NCBI GenBank assembly: GCA_001770015.1
Contig: MEQB01000036.1
Span: 1-64,000 of the forward strand
From: Bdellovibrionales bacterium RIFOXYC1_FULL_37_79
GTDB lineage: Bacteria; Bdellovibrionota; Bacteriovoracia; Bacteriovoracales; Bacteriovoracaceae
Direction: 5' to 3'
DNA: 64,000 nucleotides
Numbering within the stretch: the first letter of the stretch is position 1; each line of letters begins with the position of its first letter. Below are positions 45,566 through 63,485 of the stretch, one piece after another. The translations under genes were made by a program, and so were the position numbers. The notes below the pieces were generated by a model. It was not told where the DNA came from and ran no database searches. It saw only the letters and a program-made list of their open reading frames with translations.

Positions 45566-46792
45566 ATGAAAATTAAATTTAAATACCTCCTCATAACCTT
45601 TTTTCTGTACCACCCCGTCTGGAGTGCTAATTTTATAAAAACCCAAAAGGATTTTGATGAATATCTTGATTGGAACAAATCTAATTTATTAGATGCGGAT
45701 GAAAGATATATAAAATTACATAAGGCCCTCGACACGCTTACCCCCAAGCAGGAAGGGTCCTTAAGACCGGAACATTTCTTGAAAGTCGGAATAGCCTACT
45801 CTTATCAAAACACCATAGACCCCTTTAATAAAACTAGTGACCCCCTAAAAAAAGAGTATGATATCTCCTCAATACCCTACGTTAAATATGATCAACGGTT
45901 TATTCTAGATGTATCACCCCACATCACCGACCTGGTTTTGATCGATGATTCACAAAGGCAGCAGATGATGGGAGGGAAAGATCAAATACAAAAACTGATC
46001 AACGCTAAAAAGGCCAATAAAAAAATTGCCTTGGTCTTTTTTTCCGGGCACGGAACCTCTGATGGAAAAACCCCCATTCCAACTCACACCGCCGAGTGCA
46101 GACAACTATTTAACCAATTGCAAAGTAGTCATCAACCACACCCGTCGGAGACTGCACAGTGGAAAAATAGTGCATGCAAAAATGAAAACTACCTATTGAG
46201 CCTGCTTGATTACAAGTCAATTTTTGCACCTCTTGAGGTAGTACTCATCAACGATTCTGATTACTCTGGCATTTACCTGGATTTTGTCAATGATGGCACC
46301 TTGGCAGGCCTGATACACTCAACCGCCAAGGATGAGCTCACTCATCCCCATGAACTTTATCATGAGCAACCAGACCCCGGTGGTGCCCTGATGCCCGAAT
46401 TACGCAAGAGATTAGCTGCCAAACAGGGTTGTAAACTAGATGGAACCAATTCAGGAATAAAGGATCGCGTCCTCGATTTACAGGAATGGACCGCTGGAAT
46501 CAGGGAAAAAAAATTCGCTAATTATCGCTCTGATCCAAATATCAAAAAACAAGGAATGGGCCTATCGGTGTCTGGTACCAAAGAGTTAATCAAATTCCTC
46601 CCCATTCACGTTTATACTGCAAAGGAGTGTAATGAAACATTTCCAGATCAAACCACACGGTGGGAGGAAATGATTAAGCAAAACCAATTTTCCACCCAAA
46701 ACATTGAAAAATTAAAAAAAATGGTCAATGTAAATCGCAATATAGAAAAACTTTCCTTAGGCCAGGGCGGAACCTTTTCTACTCCCCCCTAG
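45566..46792 (+). CDS. Secreted caspase-fold protein lacking the catalytic Cys (pseudo-protease candidate)
   Basis: 408 residues. The signal peptide ends 'PVWSA'. A caspase/peptidase C13-C14-like core is visible: strand 'KKIALVFFSGHGTSDG' with the usual GHG (H162), and later strand 'PLEVVLINDSDYSGIYL'. In active family members that second motif is D-x-C-x-S-G (for example DACHSG). Here residues 230-235 are DSDYSG, so Asp232 occupies the nucleophile position. The chain between the two motifs is about 65 residues. The C-terminus is Gly/Pro-rich. A non-peptidase scaffold or inhibitor role is possible. It is followed by a secreted metallophosphatase gene on the same strand. Confidence 0.65.
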   Translation: MKIKFKYLLITFFLYHPVWSANFIKTQKDFDEYLDWNKSNLLDADERYIKLHKALDTLTPKQEGSLRPEHFLKVGIAYSYQNTIDPFNKTSDPLKKEYDISSIPYVKYDQRFILDVSPHITDLVLIDDSQRQQMMGGKDQIQKLINAKKANKKIALVFFSGHGTSDGKTPIPTHTAECRQLFNQLQSSHQPHPSETAQWKNSACKNENYLLSLLDYKSIFAPLEVVLINDSDYSGIYLDFVNDGTLAGLIHSTAKDELTHPHELYHEQPDPGGALMPELRKRLAAKQGCKLDGTNSGIKDRVLDLQEWTAGIREKKFANYRSDPNIKKQGMGLSVSGTKELIKFLPIHVYTAKECNETFPDQTTRWEEMIKQNQFSTQNIEKLKKMVNVNRNIEKLSLGQGGTFSTPP

Positions 46793-46995: not shown

Positions 46996-48225
46996 ATGAA
47001 GCTAATACTGCTACTTAGTCTTTTGATCGGCGTGCTTTCGGGTGGACAGGCCCAAATTGTGGAAAATTGTTTTACTGAAAAAAAGTCTTTAAATGAACAC
47101 GCCACTTGTCTACTCCATTTATTACCCACTGATTTGCAAGAATATAAATTTGCCATACTCACCGACCCTCATATATCCATCGTTAACGGAGTTGGTAACA
47201 CAGGCTACAACCCCATTGATGGAAGCAGTAACTTCCAGGCCAATTTGGAAAGTGCCAAAACCAATAAGGTTTCCTTCATTTTTATAACCGGTGATATGTT
47301 TTCTTACCTAAATGATGTTGACCTAAATTACTACTATCAATTTGTCTATAAATTCATGGAAAGAACCAAAATAGCGATTTTCCATATTCCCGGAAATCAT
47401 GAATTTTTTTACCGAGGCCTTGATGGTGCCGGTAAATCTGCAGGCCAATTATGGTATTCCAAAACCGGATCTTCCTATGACTTTCTTGGCAAATATTTCA
47501 GGTATATCGGTGACCCGGATATCCGTTTTACCTTTGGAAAAAATGAAACCATCAAAAGTGCCAGATTCATCATGTCCAATGTCGGATTTAATGCCATCAG
47601 TATTCCGCTTAACGTGAATGATTATGAGTTGGGAAAGAAAGTTCCTCTCAACCGGGTTTACACCAATATATATTTACCCAATAGAAAAAAAGAAAACGAT
47701 TATTATGTTAACATCCGTGACGAATACCGATACACCGTGAGAAGTTCATATAACGCCCAACCGGATTTAACCTACACCATCGATCAATCCCAAATTGATG
47801 CGATCGGATCAGTGATCAATAACCACGATGTCAAATATACCTTTGTGCTCACCCATATGGCGCTGGCCAGTTACCTGCTAAATTCTTGTAGTGATGCTAT
47901 GAAACATGTGGATAAAGCAGCTTATTTAAAGTTCAAAGAATTATTCCAAGAAAAAAATAATACCATTATTTTTTCAGGCCACACCCATCCAAGTATAAAA
48001 AATTGTGAGGGCACCAAGGACGCCAAAGGCAATTGGGTGATCACCCCCAATCGTTGTGAATGTTTTCAATATGATCTTTTTTCTCACTCAAGGACCGTCA
48101 GAAATTATATCGGATCCAGATCCACGCTCTGGACCATGATCAGCGTATCGCCCAAAGGTGTGTTGATTGATTATATGCAAGGATCAAGTATTAAAAAGAT
48201 GACCTTTAGGGAATTTTTTCAATAA
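46996..48225 (+). CDS. Secreted calcineurin-like metallophosphoesterase
   Basis: 409 residues with a signal peptide of about 20 residues ending 'GGQAQ'. Metallophos ligands in order: D57-x-H59 (LTDPHI), D100 (ITGDMF), N134-H135 (PGNHEF), a His in 'VLTHMAL', and GHTH in 'IFSGHTHPS'. This is a binuclear-metal phosphoesterase acting outside the cytoplasm; large inserts (about 140-260) resemble sphingomyelinase/acid-phosphatase-like secreted members. An AAGG ribosome site precedes the ATG. Confidence 0.85.
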   Translation: MKLILLLSLLIGVLSGGQAQIVENCFTEKKSLNEHATCLLHLLPTDLQEYKFAILTDPHISIVNGVGNTGYNPIDGSSNFQANLESAKTNKVSFIFITGDMFSYLNDVDLNYYYQFVYKFMERTKIAIFHIPGNHEFFYRGLDGAGKSAGQLWYSKTGSSYDFLGKYFRYIGDPDIRFTFGKNETIKSARFIMSNVGFNAISIPLNVNDYELGKKVPLNRVYTNIYLPNRKKENDYYVNIRDEYRYTVRSSYNAQPDLTYTIDQSQIDAIGSVINNHDVKYTFVLTHMALASYLLNSCSDAMKHVDKAAYLKFKELFQEKNNTIIFSGHTHPSIKNCEGTKDAKGNWVITPNRCECFQYDLFSHSRTVRNYIGSRSTLWTMISVSPKGVLIDYMQGSSIKKMTFREFFQ

Positions 48226-48361: not shown

Positions 48362-49714
48362 ATGTTTGCTAAATTGCATGCCCCCCTTCGAGATTTACAA
48401 AGCTTGATGATCTTCACGTTGGCGCTGTTAATTAGTCTGTCATTTTTTTGTGATAGGGTTTTTTCCCAAGACGATCATTCTCCCGCCGTAACGGTGACCC
48501 TGGACACTGCCTTTCGCTTTGCCCTCGAGAAAACCGAAACCGTTCCCATCGGCAAATCCAGAATAAACCAAGCACAGGCCAAAGAGGATCAGGTGAAATC
48601 CCGCTTTTTCCCCTCCCTTTCCTTTGAAGCAAATTACCTGGAACAAGAGAAAGCTCATTTGATGATTCCCGCCACGGGTATCTGGGGCGATAAACAGTCT
48701 CACACCCGCCTCCATCTTTCCCAATCGCTATACGAAGGATGGCGCAATTTGCATCAACTAAATGCCAGTAGATTTGACCGCGAACTTCAACGACAAAATT
48801 TGTTTTATGAAAACTGTATGACTTATATTAATATCGCCAAAATTTTTTATGCGGTCATCTCAAACGAAGCCGAACTTACCAGCCTTAACAAAACCATAGA
48901 CCTGGCGAAAGACCGGGTTAATGAAATAAAAAATCGAGTTAAAATCGGTAAATCCAGAAATATAGAATTAATGGCCGCCATGGCCCAGCTTTCCGTATTG
49001 GAGGCCCAAAAAATTGCTACCGAAGGCGAACTAACTGCGGCCCTTGATCAATTTGCACTCAGTACAGGACTTCCTCGCCATGTAACCTTGCAAAAGAAAC
49101 CGGAAAAAATTGAAAAACCTGAAAGCATGGAGACTTATCTAACTCTTATAGATGAGCGCCCGGACATCCTAGCAGCCAAGGCCCGTGCCCAAAGTGCTCA
49201 CAGTCACATATCCTCAGTCCGAGCAGGACATCTGCCGGCCGTGGAAATCGGAGCAAACTATTACCCAACCAGGGATGGCGCTAAAAAAGATATGAATTGG
49301 GATGCGGCAATTACCCTTACCGTGCCGATCTTTACCGGAGGGCTAGTGAATGCTCAAATGCGCGAAGCCAGTGCGGCTAAAACGGAAGCTGATTATTTAC
49401 TAGCATCCTCCAAACGCCGGGCGGAAATTGAAATAAGAACCGCCTACAACAGTTTGCTCAGTGCCATTAACCAGATCAAGGCTTTAGAATCTGCCCTTAA
49501 ATTAACCGAGCAAAATTACCAGGAACAAACCAAGAATTACAAATTCAGCCAGGCCACCAATCTGGATGTCATTTCGGCCTTAAACACCTATCAAGAAACC
49601 AAACGTTCCTTTGATAGAACCCACTACCAGGCCCTATTATATTGGGCCCAATTAAAAGCCACCACCGCTCAAATTTCCTTTAACTCTTTAATGACCAAAG
49701 AAAAGGACTGGTAA
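48362..49714 (+). CDS. TolC-family outer-membrane efflux protein
   Basis: 450 residues. Signal segment about 15-35. The two-fold repeat of the outer-membrane efflux fold is visible: 'VTLDTAFRFALEKTETVPIGKSRINQA' and 'MAQLSVLEAQKIATEGEL', then the second half from 'RPDILAAKARAQSAHSHISSVRAGHLPAVEIGANY' to the final 'FSQATNLDVISALNTYQETKRSF'. It makes the trimeric exit duct for a pump. Its stop overlaps the RND gene start by one base (TAATG). Confidence 0.92.
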   Translation: MFAKLHAPLRDLQSLMIFTLALLISLSFFCDRVFSQDDHSPAVTVTLDTAFRFALEKTETVPIGKSRINQAQAKEDQVKSRFFPSLSFEANYLEQEKAHLMIPATGIWGDKQSHTRLHLSQSLYEGWRNLHQLNASRFDRELQRQNLFYENCMTYINIAKIFYAVISNEAELTSLNKTIDLAKDRVNEIKNRVKIGKSRNIELMAAMAQLSVLEAQKIATEGELTAALDQFALSTGLPRHVTLQKKPEKIEKPESMETYLTLIDERPDILAAKARAQSAHSHISSVRAGHLPAVEIGANYYPTRDGAKKDMNWDAAITLTVPIFTGGLVNAQMREASAAKTEADYLLASSKRRAEIEIRTAYNSLLSAINQIKALESALKLTEQNYQEQTKNYKFSQATNLDVISALNTYQETKRSFDRTHYQALLYWAQLKATTAQISFNSLMTKEKDW

Positions 49715-52700
49715 TGAGACTCTCTGAAATATCCATAAGAAATCATGTTTTTGCTTGGATGTTAATGTTTGCACTGATTATTTTTGGGGCCATCTGCTAT
49801 CAAAAAATGGGAATAAGCCAACTGCCCAATGTAGATTTTCCAACTGTCAGCGTGGGGGTCAGCTTGGATGGGGCCTCTCCAGAGGTCATGGAACTTGATG
49901 TGGTCGATGTCATCGAGGGAGCACTGGTTTCCATTCCCGGAATAAAAAGCATGTCATCCTCTGCCAGAACCGGCTCTGGAAATATTACGGTTGAATTTGA
50001 TCTGGATAAAAACATTGATACCGCAGTTGCAGAAATCCAAAGTGCCGTAGGTCGCGTCCAACGAAGACTGCCCGACGACGTCTCCCCTCCCACGGTAAGA
50101 AAAAGTAATCCTGATGATATGCCCATTTTATGGATTGCGATAGCTGCGGAAGGTCTCACTCGTAAAGAATTGATGGAATTTGTACGTGATAATGTTCAAG
50201 ACCGTTTTTCCATGATTGATGGAGTGGGTGAAGTTTTTCTGGCTGGATATGTGGCCCCTAACCTGCGAGTATGGTTGTCACAAGACAAACTCGATCGATA
50301 TCAATTAACCTCCTCGGATGTATTGGGTGCGATTGCACGGGAACATTCTGAAATGCCTGGTGGAAGAATTGAAACCATCAATGAAGAAATGAATGTGCGT
50401 GCGATGGGAGAGGCCACCTCCATTAGTGATTTTGAAAATATCACCATTAGCAGACGTGGTGGTGCTTTAAATTATTCCCCAGTGGCCTTAAAGGACGTGG
50501 CCTTGATTGAACACGGCACGGAAGATATCAGAAACATCGGTCGCTCACAGGGTAAACTTTCAGTTGGACTTGGTATAAAAAAACAACCGGGAGCCAATGC
50601 CATTCAAGTTGGCAAGAAAGTTAAGGAAAAAATTCAAGAAATTACCAGCCAACTCCCCCACAATATGGAAATGGGCGTGCGCTTTGACACCACCACTTTT
50701 ATAAAAGAATCGGTGGATGAATTGGTTTTTACCCTGTCCTTTGCTGCTGTTTTAACCGGTCTCATTTGTTGGTTTTTTTTAGGATCATTTTCTGCCACCA
50801 TCAATATCATCCTCGCCATTCCCACCTCGATCATTGGAAGTTTCATTGCGCTTTATGCACTTGGATACACACTTAATACCTTTACGCTGCTGGGCCTTTC
50901 ACTGGCCATCGGTATTGTGGTCGATGATGCCATCATGGTGCTGGAAAACATTGTAAGACATAATGAAGCCGGAAAAGATAGAATGACTGCTGCTTTGGAT
51001 GGGTCCAAAGAAATCACACTGGCTGCCATGGCCACTACCGCAGCTATTATTGCCATCTTTTTTCCAGTGGCCTTTATGGATGGCGTGATTGGCAAATTTT
51101 TTCTTCAATTTGGGGTCACTCTCTCGGTGGCGGTTGCCATTTCATTATTGGAAGCCCTTACCTTGACTCCCATGAGATGTTCGCGCTTTTTAACCATCAA
51201 GGAAAGAACTTCTCTGGTCGGAAAATTGGTTGAAAATTCTTTTCACTATGCCGAAAATCTCTACCGCCGAATTATCCCGGTCACCCTGAAGCACCCTTGG
51301 ATCACTATCCTTATTGCAGTCTTGTTCTTTGCCAGTACCTGGATGATCAGCACCCTGTTAAAAAAAGAATTTGTGCCCACCCAGGATCAATCTCAACTGA
51401 GTGTCCGGTTACAAACGGCAGTGGGCTCTTCTCTGGCCTTCACCGATAGCAAAGTTCAAGAAGTTGAAAAATACTTTTCATCCCGTCAGGAGGTGGTAAG
51501 TTATTTCAGTTCAGTTGGTGGGATGGGCAGTTCTCAAGTGAATGCAGGTAACATTTTTTTAACCTTAACTGCAAAAACCAAAAGAAACTTAAGCACCCAG
51601 GAACTTGCCAACATCTATCGGAAAGAATTACGCGACATTAAAGGAGTACGGGCCACCATTCAAGATCCGTCACTATCAGCGCTGGGTGGAAGAAGAAGTT
51701 TCCCTATTCAATTTACCATCAAAGGTCCCAAGTGGGAGCGTTTAATTGAATTATCCGACAATATCACCAAAAAAATGGAAGAAACCAATTTAATGACTGA
51801 CATCGACACGAATTATCAAGCCGGTATGCCTGAAGTCCGGATCGTCCCCGATCGGATAAAGGCACGTCAATATGGTGTAGATGTTCATGACATCATCCAG
51901 ACGGTAAATGTCATGATGTCCGGTGCTGTTGCAGGTAAATATTCACAAGATGGAAGACGCTCTGATATCAGAGTGGGATTGCCGGCCAAATCCCGCAACT
52001 CCCTTGATTCCATAAAACAGCTAAAGGTTCGTAATGATCAAGGTGAGCTTATCCCTTTGGAAAAAGTTATCAATGTTGAAAAGCGAACTGGATTACAAGC
52101 TATCTCCAGAGAAGACCGGCAACGGGCCATTAATGTGCACGCCAACGTGGCCACGCATAGTTCACAGGCCAAGGCCATGGAGGAAACTCAAAAAATTTTA
52201 ATCACCAATTTGCCTGATGGATACTCATTTGTAGTTAGTGGGAGTGCCAAGACATTTCAGGAATCATTTAGTGGTTTGATTCTTGCCTTGATACTTGGTA
52301 TTTTAATTTCTTATATGGTGCTGGCTTCCCAATTTAACAGTTTTGTTCATCCCATAACTATTTTGACAGCACTTCCCTTTAGTATCTCTGGAGCGTTTAT
52401 TGCACTTTATCTGGGAAATCAGACCTTGAATATTTATAGTATGATTGGATTGATTCTTTTAATGGGAATTGTTAAAAAAAATTCCATCATGCTGGTGGAA
52501 TTCACCAATCAAATTCGTAAAAAAGGCAAATCCGCCAATGAGTCCTTATTGGAAGCGTGTCCGATTCGCTTACGACCCATCTTAATGACTTCCATTTCAA
52601 CTATTGTGGGTGCTCTTCCGCCAGCGTTGGCCTTTGGCCCTGGAGCTGAAAGCCGAGTTCCCATGGCCCTTTCCGTAATAGGTGGAGTGATTATTTCCAC

Positions 52701-52764
52701 TCTGCTAACACTTTTTATTGTTCCCAGCATCTACAGTCTTTTGGATCGCTTTAATAAATATTAA
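49714..52764 (+). CDS. RND-family efflux transporter (HAE1/AcrB-like)
   Basis: 1016 residues, full length, 12 TM helices with two large periplasmic loops. TM4 carries the proton-relay pair in 'GIVVDDAIMVLENI' (D-D about 403-404). The porter domain starts 'GASPEVMELDVVDVIEGAL', and the second half has 'GIVKKNSIMLVEF' in TM10. The transporter is drug/lipid type rather than the metal-type CusA. It follows the TolC gene with one-base overlap, but no membrane-fusion (adaptor) gene is in or next to the operon. Confidence 0.94.
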   Translation: MRLSEISIRNHVFAWMLMFALIIFGAICYQKMGISQLPNVDFPTVSVGVSLDGASPEVMELDVVDVIEGALVSIPGIKSMSSSARTGSGNITVEFDLDKNIDTAVAEIQSAVGRVQRRLPDDVSPPTVRKSNPDDMPILWIAIAAEGLTRKELMEFVRDNVQDRFSMIDGVGEVFLAGYVAPNLRVWLSQDKLDRYQLTSSDVLGAIAREHSEMPGGRIETINEEMNVRAMGEATSISDFENITISRRGGALNYSPVALKDVALIEHGTEDIRNIGRSQGKLSVGLGIKKQPGANAIQVGKKVKEKIQEITSQLPHNMEMGVRFDTTTFIKESVDELVFTLSFAAVLTGLICWFFLGSFSATINIILAIPTSIIGSFIALYALGYTLNTFTLLGLSLAIGIVVDDAIMVLENIVRHNEAGKDRMTAALDGSKEITLAAMATTAAIIAIFFPVAFMDGVIGKFFLQFGVTLSVAVAISLLEALTLTPMRCSRFLTIKERTSLVGKLVENSFHYAENLYRRIIPVTLKHPWITILIAVLFFASTWMISTLLKKEFVPTQDQSQLSVRLQTAVGSSLAFTDSKVQEVEKYFSSRQEVVSYFSSVGGMGSSQVNAGNIFLTLTAKTKRNLSTQELANIYRKELRDIKGVRATIQDPSLSALGGRRSFPIQFTIKGPKWERLIELSDNITKKMEETNLMTDIDTNYQAGMPEVRIVPDRIKARQYGVDVHDIIQTVNVMMSGAVAGKYSQDGRRSDIRVGLPAKSRNSLDSIKQLKVRNDQGELIPLEKVINVEKRTGLQAISREDRQRAINVHANVATHSSQAKAMEETQKILITNLPDGYSFVVSGSAKTFQESFSGLILALILGILISYMVLASQFNSFVHPITILTALPFSISGAFIALYLGNQTLNIYSMIGLILLMGIVKKNSIMLVEFTNQIRKKGKSANESLLEACPIRLRPILMTSISTIVGALPPALAFGPGAESRVPMALSVIGGVIISTLLTLFIVPSIYSLLDRFNKY

Positions 52765-53583: not shown

Positions 53584-54426
53584 TTAATCATAACCTTCCG
53601 GGTAATCCTTTGCATGCATGGCTTTAAGCTTATCAATAATGGCATTATCTGTCACACGCTGAACTTTCAATCCTTTTATAACATGTAATTGTTTTTTAAG
53701 ATCAGCCTCATTATCCGAGAGTTCACCAACAAAAATATCGATATGATCCCCTTTCACCTTGGGCCCAATATCTCCGGCCAAGAAAAAACCATCATGGACA
53801 ATTGTTTTACCATTTTTTAAATCCAAAGTTTTGCCATCCATGCTGGGAATATAAAGCACAGTTCCCAATATAATTTCTTTTTGATCAACCGCAACTGTCC
53901 GAAAAGGTATAACTGCCACGCCATGGGCCCCCTTTCCCCACCAACTATCAGTAACGGTAAACTTTCTTTGAAATTTCTTCCCCCTAGCATAGGACAACGG
54001 GAAAATACTATGATTACCGCATTTCACTCTTCCCGATCCTTGCATCACTAAATCTTTCACCGCTTGTTTAGTGAGGTATATTTTTTCCTTCGTATCCGGA
54101 CACAGAATAGGTTTATCCTTATCATCCACCAATAGTTGATCAGTTGCCAAATGACGTTGGTTCATGGATGAATATGTTTTTGACCAATAAATTGATGAAT
54201 TAAAATTATTCCCGATTACAGGGTATTTTTTTTTTCCATCAGACTGAACATTAAATTCAGTAATTTCTTGGGAAGCTACAGAAGGTTTTGCCAACTCTGT
54301 TACGATGCCAGTATTTTTTTTAGACAAAATATTTAAAGGATCGTAATTGTCTGGACAATCATCTCCCACCCTAGCGAACAAATCACCTATGCATACTATA
54401 AGTAACAACCATTTAACAAATTTCAA
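53584..54426 (-). CDS. Exported 3D-domain protein (MltA/RlpA-like double-psi barrel)
   Basis: 280 residues with an N-terminal signal segment (KWLLLIVCIGDLFA). The C-terminal half is a 3D domain: 'IPFRTVAVDQKEIILGTVLYIPSMDGK', 'VHDGFFLAGDIGPKVKGDHIDIFVG', with the three conserved Asp positions of the name (HDG, AGD, HID). Such domains occur in lytic transglycosylases of the MltA type that act on peptidoglycan. An unusual N-terminal part (about 20-140) has no match I know. TTG start with GAGG upstream. Confidence 0.75.
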   Translation of the reverse strand: MKFVKWLLLIVCIGDLFARVGDDCPDNYDPLNILSKKNTGIVTELAKPSVASQEITEFNVQSDGKKKYPVIGNNFNSSIYWSKTYSSMNQRHLATDQLLVDDKDKPILCPDTKEKIYLTKQAVKDLVMQGSGRVKCGNHSIFPLSYARGKKFQRKFTVTDSWWGKGAHGVAVIPFRTVAVDQKEIILGTVLYIPSMDGKTLDLKNGKTIVHDGFFLAGDIGPKVKGDHIDIFVGELSDNEADLKKQLHVIKGLKVQRVTDNAIIDKLKAMHAKDYPEGYD

Positions 54427-57996: not shown

Positions 57997-60900
57997 CTAT
58001 CTTCGTTTTTTTCCAAGCACCGAATCGAGACAAGCATTAATGGCCGTCTTGACTTTAATGGCAGTATTTCTAAGCGGATTAAGTTCTAAGTTGTCAGCCA
58101 GAATTTTCAAAAAATCATTTTTGCTCATATAATCTCGATAAAACGCTAGCCTGGAAAAACTTCCTGACGCAGCGGAGGGAGCTTCGTTGAGCTTTAGTAC
58201 ATAACTTGGATGCCCCTGCTGATTATATAATGTTTGAATTTTATTGCGTAAAAAATCCAGCCGATCCATGATCATATTAGAAGATGGGAAGTCTGAAGAA
58301 TTAACCACCTGGCGAATAAGTGGCAAAGGATCGTCAATCCGACCATGTAGTTGCTGAAATAAAAAATCAAATTCATTGGCCAGCAGTTGAATATCATCCG
58401 CATTTAGATGATCTTTAATTAGTATCTTGATCATCGACTTTAAAGAATTCTTTTGTTCAGGAGTAAGATTGATAATTTTATCAAAATCAATCCTAACCAT
58501 ACGATCCTGCTCCCCGATACGTTTAAGCCAATTTTGAAAATGTGGGTCGGAGTCAAATTTACCCATATTTATGGCCGAAGCTTCAGCCGCAACCACATTT
58601 TTAGCAAATTTTGTTTTCTGCATATCATTTAGTTCATCCCAAGCTACACGATGGATATTTTCTAAAATAGTTATTTCATTTTGAAATTTCTGTGGGATTA
58701 GTTGTTTTTGCAGCTCGGGGTGAGTTTTAACTACCTCAAAACTAGTTTGATTTGGTTGGTGGGCCAATCGTTCATAAGCTTCCTTGGCGAGCGGCTCAAG
58801 GGCCCGTTGGCGCTCCATATTTAATTCGATTCCTGAACTATGAAGTGTACGCATTATCTCAGAAAACTCTGCATCAAGCATGCTGCCAATTCTTTGAATC
58901 TCAGGGTTCTTATTATCTTGCATAAGTTGAATGGCCTTTTGCCAGTTTTTAGCTTCTTGAGCAATTTGATCATCGACGAGTTCCTTTTGAATACGCAAAA
59001 AGACTTCTACGGTTTGATTGGTTTGAGGGTGTTTGACATAAGCAATAATTCCATAGTTGATGGAACCTGAACCTTGGATTGGACCTAGTTTAACAATTCC
59101 GGCTTTCTTCAAGTCATCACCAAAAATTTTACGGAGTTGTTTTATCATTGTACCTCTGACAGGCTCCTGGGCATTAGCAAAATATGATTCTAATTGCTTT
59201 TGATATTTGGGAGGAAAGATCCCTGCCACTCTAAGTTTTTGCGCAGCCTTGGCGCCAAAAGGACCCATACTATCAAAAATGGGTTTAAGATCAATGCCAA
59301 CTCCTTTGGCTTGGGAACCAATTTTAGAAGCTAAAATATTAGCTAGAAAAACGGGCCTTTCGCTGGCAGGTAATGCACCTAGATAGGAATTAAAGACAGA
59401 GGAAATAACTTTATCGTCATATAGTTCACCTAAAATGATTTTATATATGTCTGTTGCAAAATTTTTAGACTTAAGTTGATTAAGTAACGGTAAAATTGCC
59501 TGAGTTCTTAATAGCGGTGGAGCTTGCTCTAAAATTTTGACCAGATCTTCTGGTTTTATGTTCCCAGGAATGGATCTTACAATATTCTCATGAAGTTCTT
59601 TACGCGGCATTTGTCCGGTAATATATTTTAGAAACTCAAGTCTTTGAAAATCATTTTCCAATCGTTGATTAAATAGCCGCGGAATTTCAATGGCCATAAT
59701 CGAATCTGATTGGGCAATATTTTTAACGGTTATTTTCTCATTATCAAGTAAATCAGTCTCCTTATCATTAGTAATTAATTTTTTTTGAATCCAATCTATC
59801 ATATTATTTTTAGAGAAGTTTTTTTCAGGAAACTGTTTGTTTAATATCTGCAAAACTTCACGGGTTTTCAAGCGGGGTCTTGCTCCCGTCTCTATTAACT
59901 CGTCACCTTTGGATAGAATCTTTTCCATCTGCCATTGTGCCAGCTTGGTTTTATTTTCATGATAAAATAAATGATTCACTTTTTCTGGATGACTAAAATA
60001 TTTCTCTCGCAGGTCGGGACGATCAGCAGTTTTTTCCCATATGTATTCAAAAAGTTTATCTGTTCTCTCAGTCTTTTCAGGATAAAATTGAGAACCATAG
60101 TCTCCCTGCAAACCTGACTCTGTCTGAATTTTAAATATTTCAACTAAGTCTGCAAGCGCAATACGGCTTAATTGTTTGGGATCATCAATTATTTTATCAA
60201 ACCACTTGGCCGTAATACTGGGCAAAAACATGTCCGAGTATGCTAGCGTATTTGTTTCATATAACTGCCGGTAGGCATCATAGTAACCCAGCAAAAATTG
60301 TGCCCGTTCACTTGCTTCTGTTGGAAAAATATGCCGAAGATTAGACTTATAAATTTCCTGGAAGTCATTGGAACGATAGTGTTGCAGATCTTTTTTTAAA
60401 TATTCATTCACCATCGATTTTATTAAAGTGGAATACTGAGTACGTTTGGGTATCTTTTTAGAAAACGGTTTTTTCGTAAGTTGCTGCCACGTCTTAAGAA
60501 AAACATTTTTTTTAATTTCATTTATTTTTTTTGTAATTTGGTCTTTTTGGGCCTGGTTTAAATAAGAAGATCCCGACATCGGAACATAAAAATCCAACAA
60601 CTGTTCGTTGGACAAATTTTGGGTGGCAATCCATTGCAGATGATCCTTTACTAAATCATTCATCCAAGCGTGTTTAGCGCCACCGGACAAAAATTCACTC
60701 CTAGTCATATCGTGACTGGCCAAATGGGGCATTTTTAATATCAAATGATAGAGTTCTTCTTTCGACATGGTTTTTTCTAGCCGTTCAAAAATAAATGGAT
60801 AGTGATAAAAATTATTATCCAACGCTGAGGTGACTTTAAAAAGTTTATTTATATCGCTGCGATTAAAAAAAGACTTTGCTCCTTTAGCAATGGTTTCTTT

Positions 60901-63207
60901 TTCAAATCCAGGCGCCGATGTAATAAGCTTCCAATTTTCCTGATCACTCCCCAACAATAAAAAGGCTTTTACTTCATCGTGACTTAAAGGTGCAGACAAA
61001 CCGGCTTTTTTAAACACACCATAGTGATTTATATCATGTTCTATGGCAGAGTTATAAAAAAAAAGCAGATCATCAGGAAGGGCAACTAGTTTATGATCAG
61101 TACAAAATTCTTGGATAAGATCATTGCCTAGTTGAAAAACTTCTTTGGATTTGTTGGTTTTATTCTGAAGTATTTCATTTAATTTTTGGATTAGTACTTT
61201 CTTGTCATTATTATCAATCTGCAAATCAAGGTCTTTCAACAAGGTCAGTTTTTCTGATTCATTTATCAAATTATTATTTTCAATCAAGATATCTTTCATT
61301 AATTTTTGAACGACTGGATCTTTGTCTAATTTAAGATCTTGGGCTCGTTGGGCAATCCATTTTTGATACTTGAAAAAAATTGCTTTGGAGCGCACAGGAT
61401 CGAGTTTAGCGCATTCATTTAGCCACTCTGTAGCAGTATTTTTATACTTTTTAAGGTGAGAATCAAACACTTTAATCAATTGTCCCTTATTATCGCCAGT
61501 CCCCTGAAGTTGATTTTCAAAATTTAATCTTAGCTTTTCTAAGATACTTTCTGGCAATAAACCACTGAGCAGTTCCTTTTGTTTTTGCGGACTAAAATTA
61601 TATTCGCTTCTAAAATTTTTTAAGGTTGGAATTGAACCTTCTTCTGAAAATATATTAGAAAGACATAAATCGGCATTTTTATCGTAGTATTGCTGCCTTA
61701 ATGCTTTGATTTGAGTGTCCCTTTTGTATGACTTGAGTTTTTGCTTGAAATTTAGTTTTAACTCCATGATGTCATCATAATATTTGACACTACTTTTATC
61801 TTTCATCTCCAGCAAAGCACGATATTTTTTTGTCAAATCATCAAACCCGTTTGCATCATACATGGATTGGGATATTTCAAGGGATTCCTTAGCTTGTTCT
61901 AAACGTTTAGATACTTCCTCAAACTCAGATTTATACTGTTTGATTTTCTTTGGATCAGTGGCATTTTTTAGTTCTTCTGCCACATGATCATATTCTTTTC
62001 GTGCGTTATAAAAGTCGGAATACATATCTGGAAAATTATAATCTAATTGGGTGTTATTAAATGATTGGTCGAGCAATCGATCCAAATGAGTCAGTTGTAA
62101 AAAATGCTCCATCTTTTTGCTTTCAGGAAAACTTGCATGAAACACTTCAATAATCTGTCCACTTATTTTTTCTTCTGACTGGATAATTGTTTGTACCAAT
62201 TCTTTTTTACTACTGATTAAACCCATTTTTTGGTGAATGGCCAAACGACGTTTTTCGTTAATATCTTCGGCAAAACGATCAATTGCCTGACTTAATTTTA
62301 AATAAGTTTTATCTCTTTCACCTGATAGATATTTTGCTTCGGCTATTTGTTTAAAAATAGTTTTGATATCTGTGGCGTCGTCTAAATCTGCATGCAAGCG
62401 TTGAAGCTGTCTATTGAGCAATTCTTTGGAATTCATGTATTGATTGCTTTGTTCAAGATTACCGGCGATATCTGCATGAGGTTTTATGTTTATTTTTAAT
62501 TTACCTTCCCGCCTACTTGCTGTTAAAGATGTGGAGATCAAATCAGCACGAATTTCAGCTCTGGATAAAAAGGCATCAACACTATTCTGGTTAGCAGTTT
62601 GGATTTTTTCAAGCAGATTTAAGGTCTTATATGGATCATATCCAGTATCAATCATCCGTTTAAAAATTGCATTTAAATCATCTTCGTTTTCAACTGCTCG
62701 CTTTAAAAGAGCCGCCTCAATTGTATTTCCTTTGGCCTTCAGGTCGTCAATGGTGTCCTGAATTTGGGAAGTGGAATGTTCCAGTTCCCTGCTAATTACA
62801 AAGGCCAATTCCGATGGGTCACTGGCGATCTTGGCCATTCCCTTGTTGATAAATAATACGTTGCCGGCTTTTTTAAAATCTGATTTTAAAAAACCGGCTG
62901 CAGGTCGCATATCATCCATTATCACTAAAAACAATTTATGACCATCACTCGCATCATAGACATCCCTAAGCACTTGCTCACAAGCTGAATAAAAGGATTG
63001 TAATTTTTTTTCTTCCTTCAAATTTACCGGGTGAGCATCCTTAAGCTCCATTAAGTAGCCAATGTCTGGTGGAATAGCATCAGCAAAGGAAGCTAAGTCA
63101 ATTGGGATAATTTCAGGTGCTACAACTGGCGATTGAGCATGGGCATAAGACATCGCTATCAATATCGATATTATAAAAAGAAATGATGTATTTAAATATT
63201 TCAGCAT
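57997..63207 (-). CDS. Giant exported protein: degenerate M48-like N-terminus, helical middle, ABC1/UbiB-kinase-like C-terminus
   Basis: 1736 residues from ATG 63207, which starts a signal peptide (MLKYLNTSFLFIISILIAMSYAHA); the open frame reaches 20 codons further upstream. Residues about 55-240 resemble M48 peptidases (NKGMAKIASDPSELAFV, then 'SRELEH' where HELGH is expected, 'DTGYDPYKTLNLL', 'SRAEIRADL'). Residues about 270-1300 are mainly helical and coiled coil. About 1313-1590 follow ABC1/UbiB kinases in order: 'GPFGAKAAQKL' (KxGQ), 'PPKYQKQL', 'PIQGSGSIN' (A-rich loop), 'VEVFLRIQ' (VAVKVQ), 'QEAKN', 'FDSDPHFQN' (FHADPHPGN) and 'RIDFDKI' (DFG). Several core residues are changed. Activity and partner unknown. 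Confidence 0.7.
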   Translation of the reverse strand: MLKYLNTSFLFIISILIAMSYAHAQSPVVAPEIIPIDLASFADAIPPDIGYLMELKDAHPVNLKEEKKLQSFYSACEQVLRDVYDASDGHKLFLVIMDDMRPAAGFLKSDFKKAGNVLFINKGMAKIASDPSELAFVISRELEHSTSQIQDTIDDLKAKGNTIEAALLKRAVENEDDLNAIFKRMIDTGYDPYKTLNLLEKIQTANQNSVDAFLSRAEIRADLISTSLTASRREGKLKINIKPHADIAGNLEQSNQYMNSKELLNRQLQRLHADLDDATDIKTIFKQIAEAKYLSGERDKTYLKLSQAIDRFAEDINEKRRLAIHQKMGLISSKKELVQTIIQSEEKISGQIIEVFHASFPESKKMEHFLQLTHLDRLLDQSFNNTQLDYNFPDMYSDFYNARKEYDHVAEELKNATDPKKIKQYKSEFEEVSKRLEQAKESLEISQSMYDANGFDDLTKKYRALLEMKDKSSVKYYDDIMELKLNFKQKLKSYKRDTQIKALRQQYYDKNADLCLSNIFSEEGSIPTLKNFRSEYNFSPQKQKELLSGLLPESILEKLRLNFENQLQGTGDNKGQLIKVFDSHLKKYKNTATEWLNECAKLDPVRSKAIFFKYQKWIAQRAQDLKLDKDPVVQKLMKDILIENNNLINESEKLTLLKDLDLQIDNNDKKVLIQKLNEILQNKTNKSKEVFQLGNDLIQEFCTDHKLVALPDDLLFFYNSAIEHDINHYGVFKKAGLSAPLSHDEVKAFLLLGSDQENWKLITSAPGFEKETIAKGAKSFFNRSDINKLFKVTSALDNNFYHYPFIFERLEKTMSKEELYHLILKMPHLASHDMTRSEFLSGGAKHAWMNDLVKDHLQWIATQNLSNEQLLDFYVPMSGSSYLNQAQKDQITKKINEIKKNVFLKTWQQLTKKPFSKKIPKRTQYSTLIKSMVNEYLKKDLQHYRSNDFQEIYKSNLRHIFPTEASERAQFLLGYYDAYRQLYETNTLAYSDMFLPSITAKWFDKIIDDPKQLSRIALADLVEIFKIQTESGLQGDYGSQFYPEKTERTDKLFEYIWEKTADRPDLREKYFSHPEKVNHLFYHENKTKLAQWQMEKILSKGDELIETGARPRLKTREVLQILNKQFPEKNFSKNNMIDWIQKKLITNDKETDLLDNEKITVKNIAQSDSIMAIEIPRLFNQRLENDFQRLEFLKYITGQMPRKELHENIVRSIPGNIKPEDLVKILEQAPPLLRTQAILPLLNQLKSKNFATDIYKIILGELYDDKVISSVFNSYLGALPASERPVFLANILASKIGSQAKGVGIDLKPIFDSMGPFGAKAAQKLRVAGIFPPKYQKQLESYFANAQEPVRGTMIKQLRKIFGDDLKKAGIVKLGPIQGSGSINYGIIAYVKHPQTNQTVEVFLRIQKELVDDQIAQEAKNWQKAIQLMQDNKNPEIQRIGSMLDAEFSEIMRTLHSSGIELNMERQRALEPLAKEAYERLAHQPNQTSFEVVKTHPELQKQLIPQKFQNEITILENIHRVAWDELNDMQKTKFAKNVVAAEASAINMGKFDSDPHFQNWLKRIGEQDRMVRIDFDKIINLTPEQKNSLKSMIKILIKDHLNADDIQLLANEFDFLFQQLHGRIDDPLPLIRQVVNSSDFPSSNMIMDRLDFLRNKIQTLYNQQGHPSYVLKLNEAPSAASGSFSRLAFYRDYMSKNDFLKILADNLELNPLRNTAIKVKTAINACLDSVLGKKRR

Positions 63208-63242
63208 ACTAAAAACAACCTGATCGTTTATCGGTTTTATAG

Positions 63243-63485
63243 GTGGTAAATAAAGTAATTCCAGCAATTTTGAGCGAAGCGATTATATTTCGTCAAACAA
63301 AAGATATTTATAGAAAAATAAGCAAAATAACCGGGGTTAACCTGTCATCCAAGAATCAAAATGTTTACTGTCTTTGTCAGGAAATTATTGATGGAAAAGA
63401 AACTATTAAAGAAGTATCTATCCCGGTGCTTCGTCCTAACGCCAATCCCAGAGCATCATTGGAAAAATTCAAAACCAAGGAATGA
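63243..63485 (+). CDS. Small hypothetical ORF, doubtful
   Basis: About 80 codons from a GTG at 63243 with no good ribosome site. The second half (GVNLSSKNQNVYCLCQEII; IPVLRPNANPRASLEKF) has a plausible protein composition. It starts 36 bases from the divergent giant gene. It could be a real small gene or the tail of a decayed one. Confidence 0.35.
   Translation: MVNKVIPAILSEAIIFRQTKDIYRKISKITGVNLSSKNQNVYCLCQEIIDGKETIKEVSIPVLRPNANPRASLEKFKTKE

Follow-up and report, generated by a model that had tools for sequence, protein, structure and literature searches.

A predicted exported pseudo-orthocaspase of Bdellovibrionota with aspartate in place of the catalytic cysteine

What is a caspase-like protein for when its nucleophilic cysteine has been replaced by aspartate? 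The question is raised by a gene of Bdellovibrionales bacterium RIFOXYC1_FULL_37_79 that lies in the stretch of DNA analysed here (the window: 64,000 nucleotides, positions 1 to 64,000 of contig MEQB01000036.1, assembly GCA_001770015.1). A sequence-only reading of positions 46043-46271, which span S160 to G235 of the product, had described a secreted protein that keeps the GHG motif with H162, reads DSDYSG at the site of the catalytic Cys, and seems to maintain a caspase fold without protease chemistry. The genome is 4.36 Mb long and 96% complete, and the gene is the only match to itself there. The following features of the gene and its product are referred to throughout, all on the plus strand.

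45566..46792, +: pseudo-orthocaspase gene, 408 aa, from the open reading frame and its translation; single copy in the genome
45566..45625, +: likely Sec signal peptide, residues 1-20 (MKIKFKYLLITFFLYHPVWS), judged by eye; cut site unproven
45761..46630, +: caspase-fold core, about residues 66-355, from the AlphaFold2 model; range aligned to metacaspase 4, 69-353, Z 15.3
45890..45892, +: D109, the first of two acidic residues of the S1 pocket, equivalent to the Asp in metacaspase GCxND; Asp in 18 of 18 aligned proteins, aligned to GCVND in metacaspase-4
46043..46054, +: S160-G-H162-G motif with the catalytic-position His162 (codon 46049-46051); His in 18 of 18
46097..46099, +: C178, non-catalytic Cys, also in the genus proteins L002 and L003; a Cys lies at most 4 columns away in relatives L010-L013
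46175..46177, +: C204, non-catalytic Cys; aligned Cys in 8 of 9 genus and exported-subgroup proteins, 0 of 9 other C14 proteins
46253..46255, +: D230, the second acidic residue of the S1 pocket, equivalent to the Asp in DxCxSG; 18 of 18
46259..46261, +: D232 (GAT), replacing the nucleophilic Cys within N229-D-S-D232-Y-S-G235; Asp in both orthologues, Cys in 16 others
46430..46489, +: C289-W308, site of the relatives' EF-hand-like loop, degenerate and with an insertion in the 18-protein alignment; holds the conserved C289
46628..46630, +: C355, non-catalytic Cys, also in L002 and L003; a Cys lies at most 4 columns away in L010-L013 and L025

The exchange of Cys for Asp in DSDYSG, beside an intact GHG with H162, was confirmed by translation, by a syntenic orthologue, by alignment and by the register of an hhalign comparison. 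The orthologue (L002:1501-2703) belongs to Bdellovibrionales bacterium RIFOXYA1_FULL_36_14 (G001), the sole other genome of the genus examined; it is 53% identical to the window protein, reads NDSDHSG, and sits in the order marC, gene, outer membrane efflux protein, AcrB. The same genome holds a paralogue of about 30% identity (L003:1495-2679, minus strand) that adjoins phoU and carries Cys in the motif NDSCHSG. Codon 232 is GAT in both orthologues and TGC in the paralogue. Only draft assemblies are available, which would allow for a sequencing or assembly error at this codon, but the same GAT in two separate genomes whose proteins share 53% identity refutes that explanation for practical purposes, and we assign it a negligible probability. 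Profile searches of 369 genomes of the phylum found no further orthologue of the window protein; Asp232 is kept in the sole orthologue found, so that its conservation rests on two sequences.

Homology of the window protein to Peptidase C14 is real as judged from profile comparisons, and it is easily overlooked. Alone, the protein scores 12.2 bits against Pfam C14, under the cut-off of 21.4, such that a single-sequence search would miss the relationship; the paralogue passes with 23.2 bits. Other single-sequence searches gave no match in NCBIfam, nothing meaningful in the PDB and only chance-level matches in PHROGs, and a weak Pfam match to MC1 (PF05854) was treated as chance. Phylum-wide profile searches recovered further exported relatives (L010-L013, L025 and L026), all Cys-bearing; one candidate relative (L006 in G086) was rejected, having an internal stop and no caspase-like ORF. 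A seven-member profile of the genus proteins and exported relatives, containing no canonical C14 sequence, matches metacaspases of known structure with the motifs in register (metacaspase-4, E-value 2.7e-6). Using hhalign, we aligned the two Asp orthologues with four Cys-bearing exported relatives (93% probability, E 2.9e-7), which places D232 on the catalytic Cys in a gap-free neighbourhood; against canonical C14 proteins the match was shorter (80%) and fell on the SGHG strand. A pattern-based scan of genome contigs returned none with the single protein and, with an alignment as query, only the two known RIFOXYA1_FULL_36_14 loci. The pattern-based scan of viral contigs and a tblastn search of plasmids with the paralogue as query returned none, and five proteins of the group had no match among the PADLOC-DB anti-phage defence models.

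The predicted structure agrees with this assignment. An AlphaFold2 model built with 18 sequences has a mean pLDDT of 76 and a pTM of 0.73, and its core blocks, among them residues 151-170 and 221-250, reach about 90; a model from three sequences (pLDDT 35) was discarded. Foldseek returned metacaspase 9, legumain and caspases as best matches. With VIA-align, the model superposes on Arabidopsis metacaspase 4 with a Z score of 15.3 (3.4 A over 213 residues) and on legumains, caspases (including caspase-6) and MALT1 with Z scores of 14.4-15.3, and as canonical C14 sequences were part of the AlphaFold2 alignment this match speaks for compatibility more than it provides an independent test. The model thus bears out the expectation that the caspase fold is maintained, and the window protein is predicted to have the caspase-hemoglobinase fold. 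Pseudo-orthocaspases are defined in part by the lack of a p10 domain; in the model, two more strands (332-335 and 346-349) follow the p20-like part.

Within this fold, the pocket framework is retained and the nucleophile alone altered: D109 and D230 are kept and the Cys is changed. D109, G161, H162, D230 and G235 are invariant in the 18-protein alignment, and at column 232 Asp is confined to the two orthologues, with Cys in the 16 others. The roles of these two acidic S1-pocket positions in metacaspases are described in PMC6426788, which cites the Trypanosoma brucei MCA2 structure. Of the His-Cys dyad of an active orthocaspase, the window protein has His162, with Asp232 standing for Cys; it carries two of the marks of a pseudo-orthocaspase, namely a substituted catalytic residue in p20 and retained acidic S1-pocket Asp residues. 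It had been foreseen that a nearby Cys might stand in for the nucleophile, and we found none: C178, C204, C289 and C355 all recur in the paralogue alongside its catalytic Cys, so none of the four replaces the nucleophile. On these grounds the protein probably lacks peptide hydrolysis and is a dead protease kept for binding.

A different outcome would be a changed enzyme, in which H162 and D232, with D230, perform other chemistry in the old pocket, such as metal binding or Asp-based hydrolysis. The residue at 232 is Asp, not Ser, Ala or Gly; a Cys codon must change at two bases to give it, and both species retain it next to an unaltered His, all of which fits such a role. This reading draws on two sequences, however, and we know of no clan CD member that works by His-Asp chemistry; we regard it as very improbable. 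A broader form of the idea, in which Asp232, His162 and D230 would make up a new functional centre (a ligand or metal site) on an exported caspase fold, defining a non-proteolytic secreted orthocaspase branch in Bdellovibrionota, also seems to us unlikely.

We infer that the protein is exported, to the periplasm or the outside. The N-terminus is hydrophobic in all three genus members (the window protein, its orthologue and the paralogue), and the linker at residues 14-26 has low confidence in the AlphaFold2 model; export signals of the window protein and its relatives were judged by eye. The contrast that the sequence-only reading drew with most bacterial caspase homologues proved weak: several Cys-bearing C14 proteins of the phylum also show export signals by eye, a TAT-like signal is present in the YS pseudo-orthocaspases of cyanobacteria (PMC6426788), and exported families also belong to the clan, among them C11, with one member in the window genome. 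That member (L058, G000:C11, about 64667-65536, minus strand, on another contig) is clostripain-like, with an apparent signal peptide and intact WGHG and FDACL motifs.

Most members of the exported subgroup share the four non-catalytic cysteines, three of which (C178, C204 and C289) are without an equivalent in the nine remaining C14 proteins; this pattern suggests disulphides among the four. Three exported C14 relatives (L011, L012 and L025) have an EF-hand-like DxDxDG loop shortly after p20, below the Pfam cut-offs, with weak EF-hand matches in L012 and L025. In those relatives the loop is a possible Ca2+ site.

When did the cysteine change, and has the gene been kept since? In a tree of the core, the window protein, its orthologue and the paralogue group with an ultrafast bootstrap of 100 and L013 joins next at 98, with weak deeper nodes. 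Because every outgroup has Cys, Cys is ancestral and the change to Asp, TGC to GAT by two base changes, is placed on the branch that leads to the orthologue pair. The orthologue pair has a dN of 0.36 and a dS of about 2, which is saturated and makes the resulting omega of about 0.18 a rough figure; conserved neighbours have omega values of 0.03-0.13 and a 3D-domain neighbour 0.39. Changes at third positions (56%) exceed those at second positions (22%). The pocket loops are 73% identical between the orthologues (30 of 41 residues) compared with 53% elsewhere (152 of 288; hypergeometric p 0.01), a modest conservation that 30 of 329 circular shifts also reach.

These numbers bear on whether the gene is simply decaying, a dead protease drifting to loss. 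Two points fit such drift: its evolution is far faster than that of most neighbours (53% identity versus 77-95%), and the window genome has no Cys paralogue. Yet the frame is open in both genomes, the omega and the excess of third-position changes speak for constraint, and both orthologues keep the four non-catalytic cysteines, H162 and both pocket aspartates. Rapid divergence is also not peculiar to this gene: the neighbouring 3D-domain protein (53584-54426, minus strand; omega about 0.39) is equally divergent, at 47% identity to its syntenic counterpart in RIFOXYA1_FULL_36_14. The sequence comparisons favour a gene that is kept and evolves fast under purifying selection, and we consider decay an improbable account.

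The surrounding genes complete the description of the locus. A metallophosphoesterase gene (46996-48225, plus strand; PF00149, apparent signal peptide) separates the pseudo-orthocaspase gene from the efflux genes and is missing there in RIFOXYA1_FULL_36_14. Genes for a TolC-like outer membrane protein and an AcrB-like RND pump are adjacent at 48362-52764 (plus strand), and in neither genome was a periplasmic adaptor gene seen between or directly before them. Farther on, an ORF of 1756 aa (57997-63267, minus strand) has no Pfam match at E 0.001.

The paralogue raises a further alternative, that the window protein is a cFLIP-like regulator, a pseudo-protease that binds or caps an active caspase-like paralogue. 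In RIFOXYA1_FULL_36_14 the Asp form occurs together with a His-Cys paralogue of matching exported four-Cys architecture, which speaks for such a regulator. The window genome, however, keeps the Asp form with no other C14 match, and no caspase gene adjoins its phoU, the place that the paralogue occupies in RIFOXYA1_FULL_36_14. A search of the window genome for the CHAT family gave no member either. Regulation of a paralogue is thus possible in RIFOXYA1_FULL_36_14 and not general. The C11 clostripain-like protein of the window genome could be a target instead, but nothing links the two, and we find the regulator model doubtful.

The explanation that we prefer, and hold to be reasonably probable, is an exported pseudo-orthocaspase in which Cys changed to Asp before the two species split and which was then kept, acting by binding and not by cutting. 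Its ancestor would have been a C14-type (caspase p20) protein with a His-Cys dyad; the change would have preceded the divergence of the two known species, and the protein would have been retained since. The folded pocket may still hold a partner or substrate by a basic (Lys/Arg) loop or peptide end and leave it uncut, so that the protein would serve as a binding module, whether decoy, protector or scaffold, within the cell envelope or beyond it. We infer this mechanism from the retained acidic pocket, which is likewise retained in known pseudo-orthocaspases (PMC6426788), and it names a candidate class of ligand or partner only.

Pseudo-orthocaspases account for 858 of 9,994 bacterial orthocaspases, mostly from Alphaproteobacteria and Cyanobacteria, with YS as the commonest dyad alongside YA, FS, QC, HA and YN (Klemencic et al. 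2019, PMC6426788). Dyads with Asp replacing the Cys are reported from cyanobacteria as YD and QD, and HD is not in the main-text list of that report (PMC8283722). The window protein resembles these proteins in its p20 with a substituted dyad, its acidic pocket, an export signal (TAT-like in some of them) and a presumed non-proteolytic role; it differs in its His-Asp dyad, its Bdellovibrionota host and its four extra conserved cysteines. The paralogue is homologous over its full length and has a comparable export signal at the N-terminus and the same four cysteines and pocket; it differs by its catalytic Cys and its low identity. Arabidopsis metacaspases 4 and 9 (6w8r and 8a53) share the caspase-fold core, with Z scores of 15.3 and 14.5 and 17-18% identical residues across about 210 aligned positions, but they are Cys-His proteases, present as Cys mutants in these structures, with a p10 part and no bacterial signal-peptide export. 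In Trypanosoma brucei MCA4, described in PMC7475262 as a pseudopeptidase with a biological role, the catalytic Cys is also replaced; that protein is eukaryotic, has Ser in place of Cys and is not a close homologue. Knock-out of the Synechocystis pseudo-orthocaspase SyOC has a phenotype (PMC7889975).

Separately, a 493-aa C14 protein encoded by a minus-strand ORF in the same bacterial family (L047 in G069) reads FIDSSAEE, with Ser for Cys, and keeps AGHG; by its motifs it is a second, separate pseudo-orthocaspase of that family.

Pseudo-orthocaspases, including Cys-to-Asp forms, were already known; what is new is an apparently exported His-Asp pseudo-orthocaspase with four extra cysteines in Bdellovibrionota. 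Such proteins have so far come mainly from phototrophs and been tied to photosynthesis or cell death. The small exported four-Cys orthocaspase subgroup of this phylum scores near or under the usual profile cut-offs, and the Asp form together with an active-type paralogue in one of the two genomes offers a natural pair for the role of a non-cutting caspase fold.
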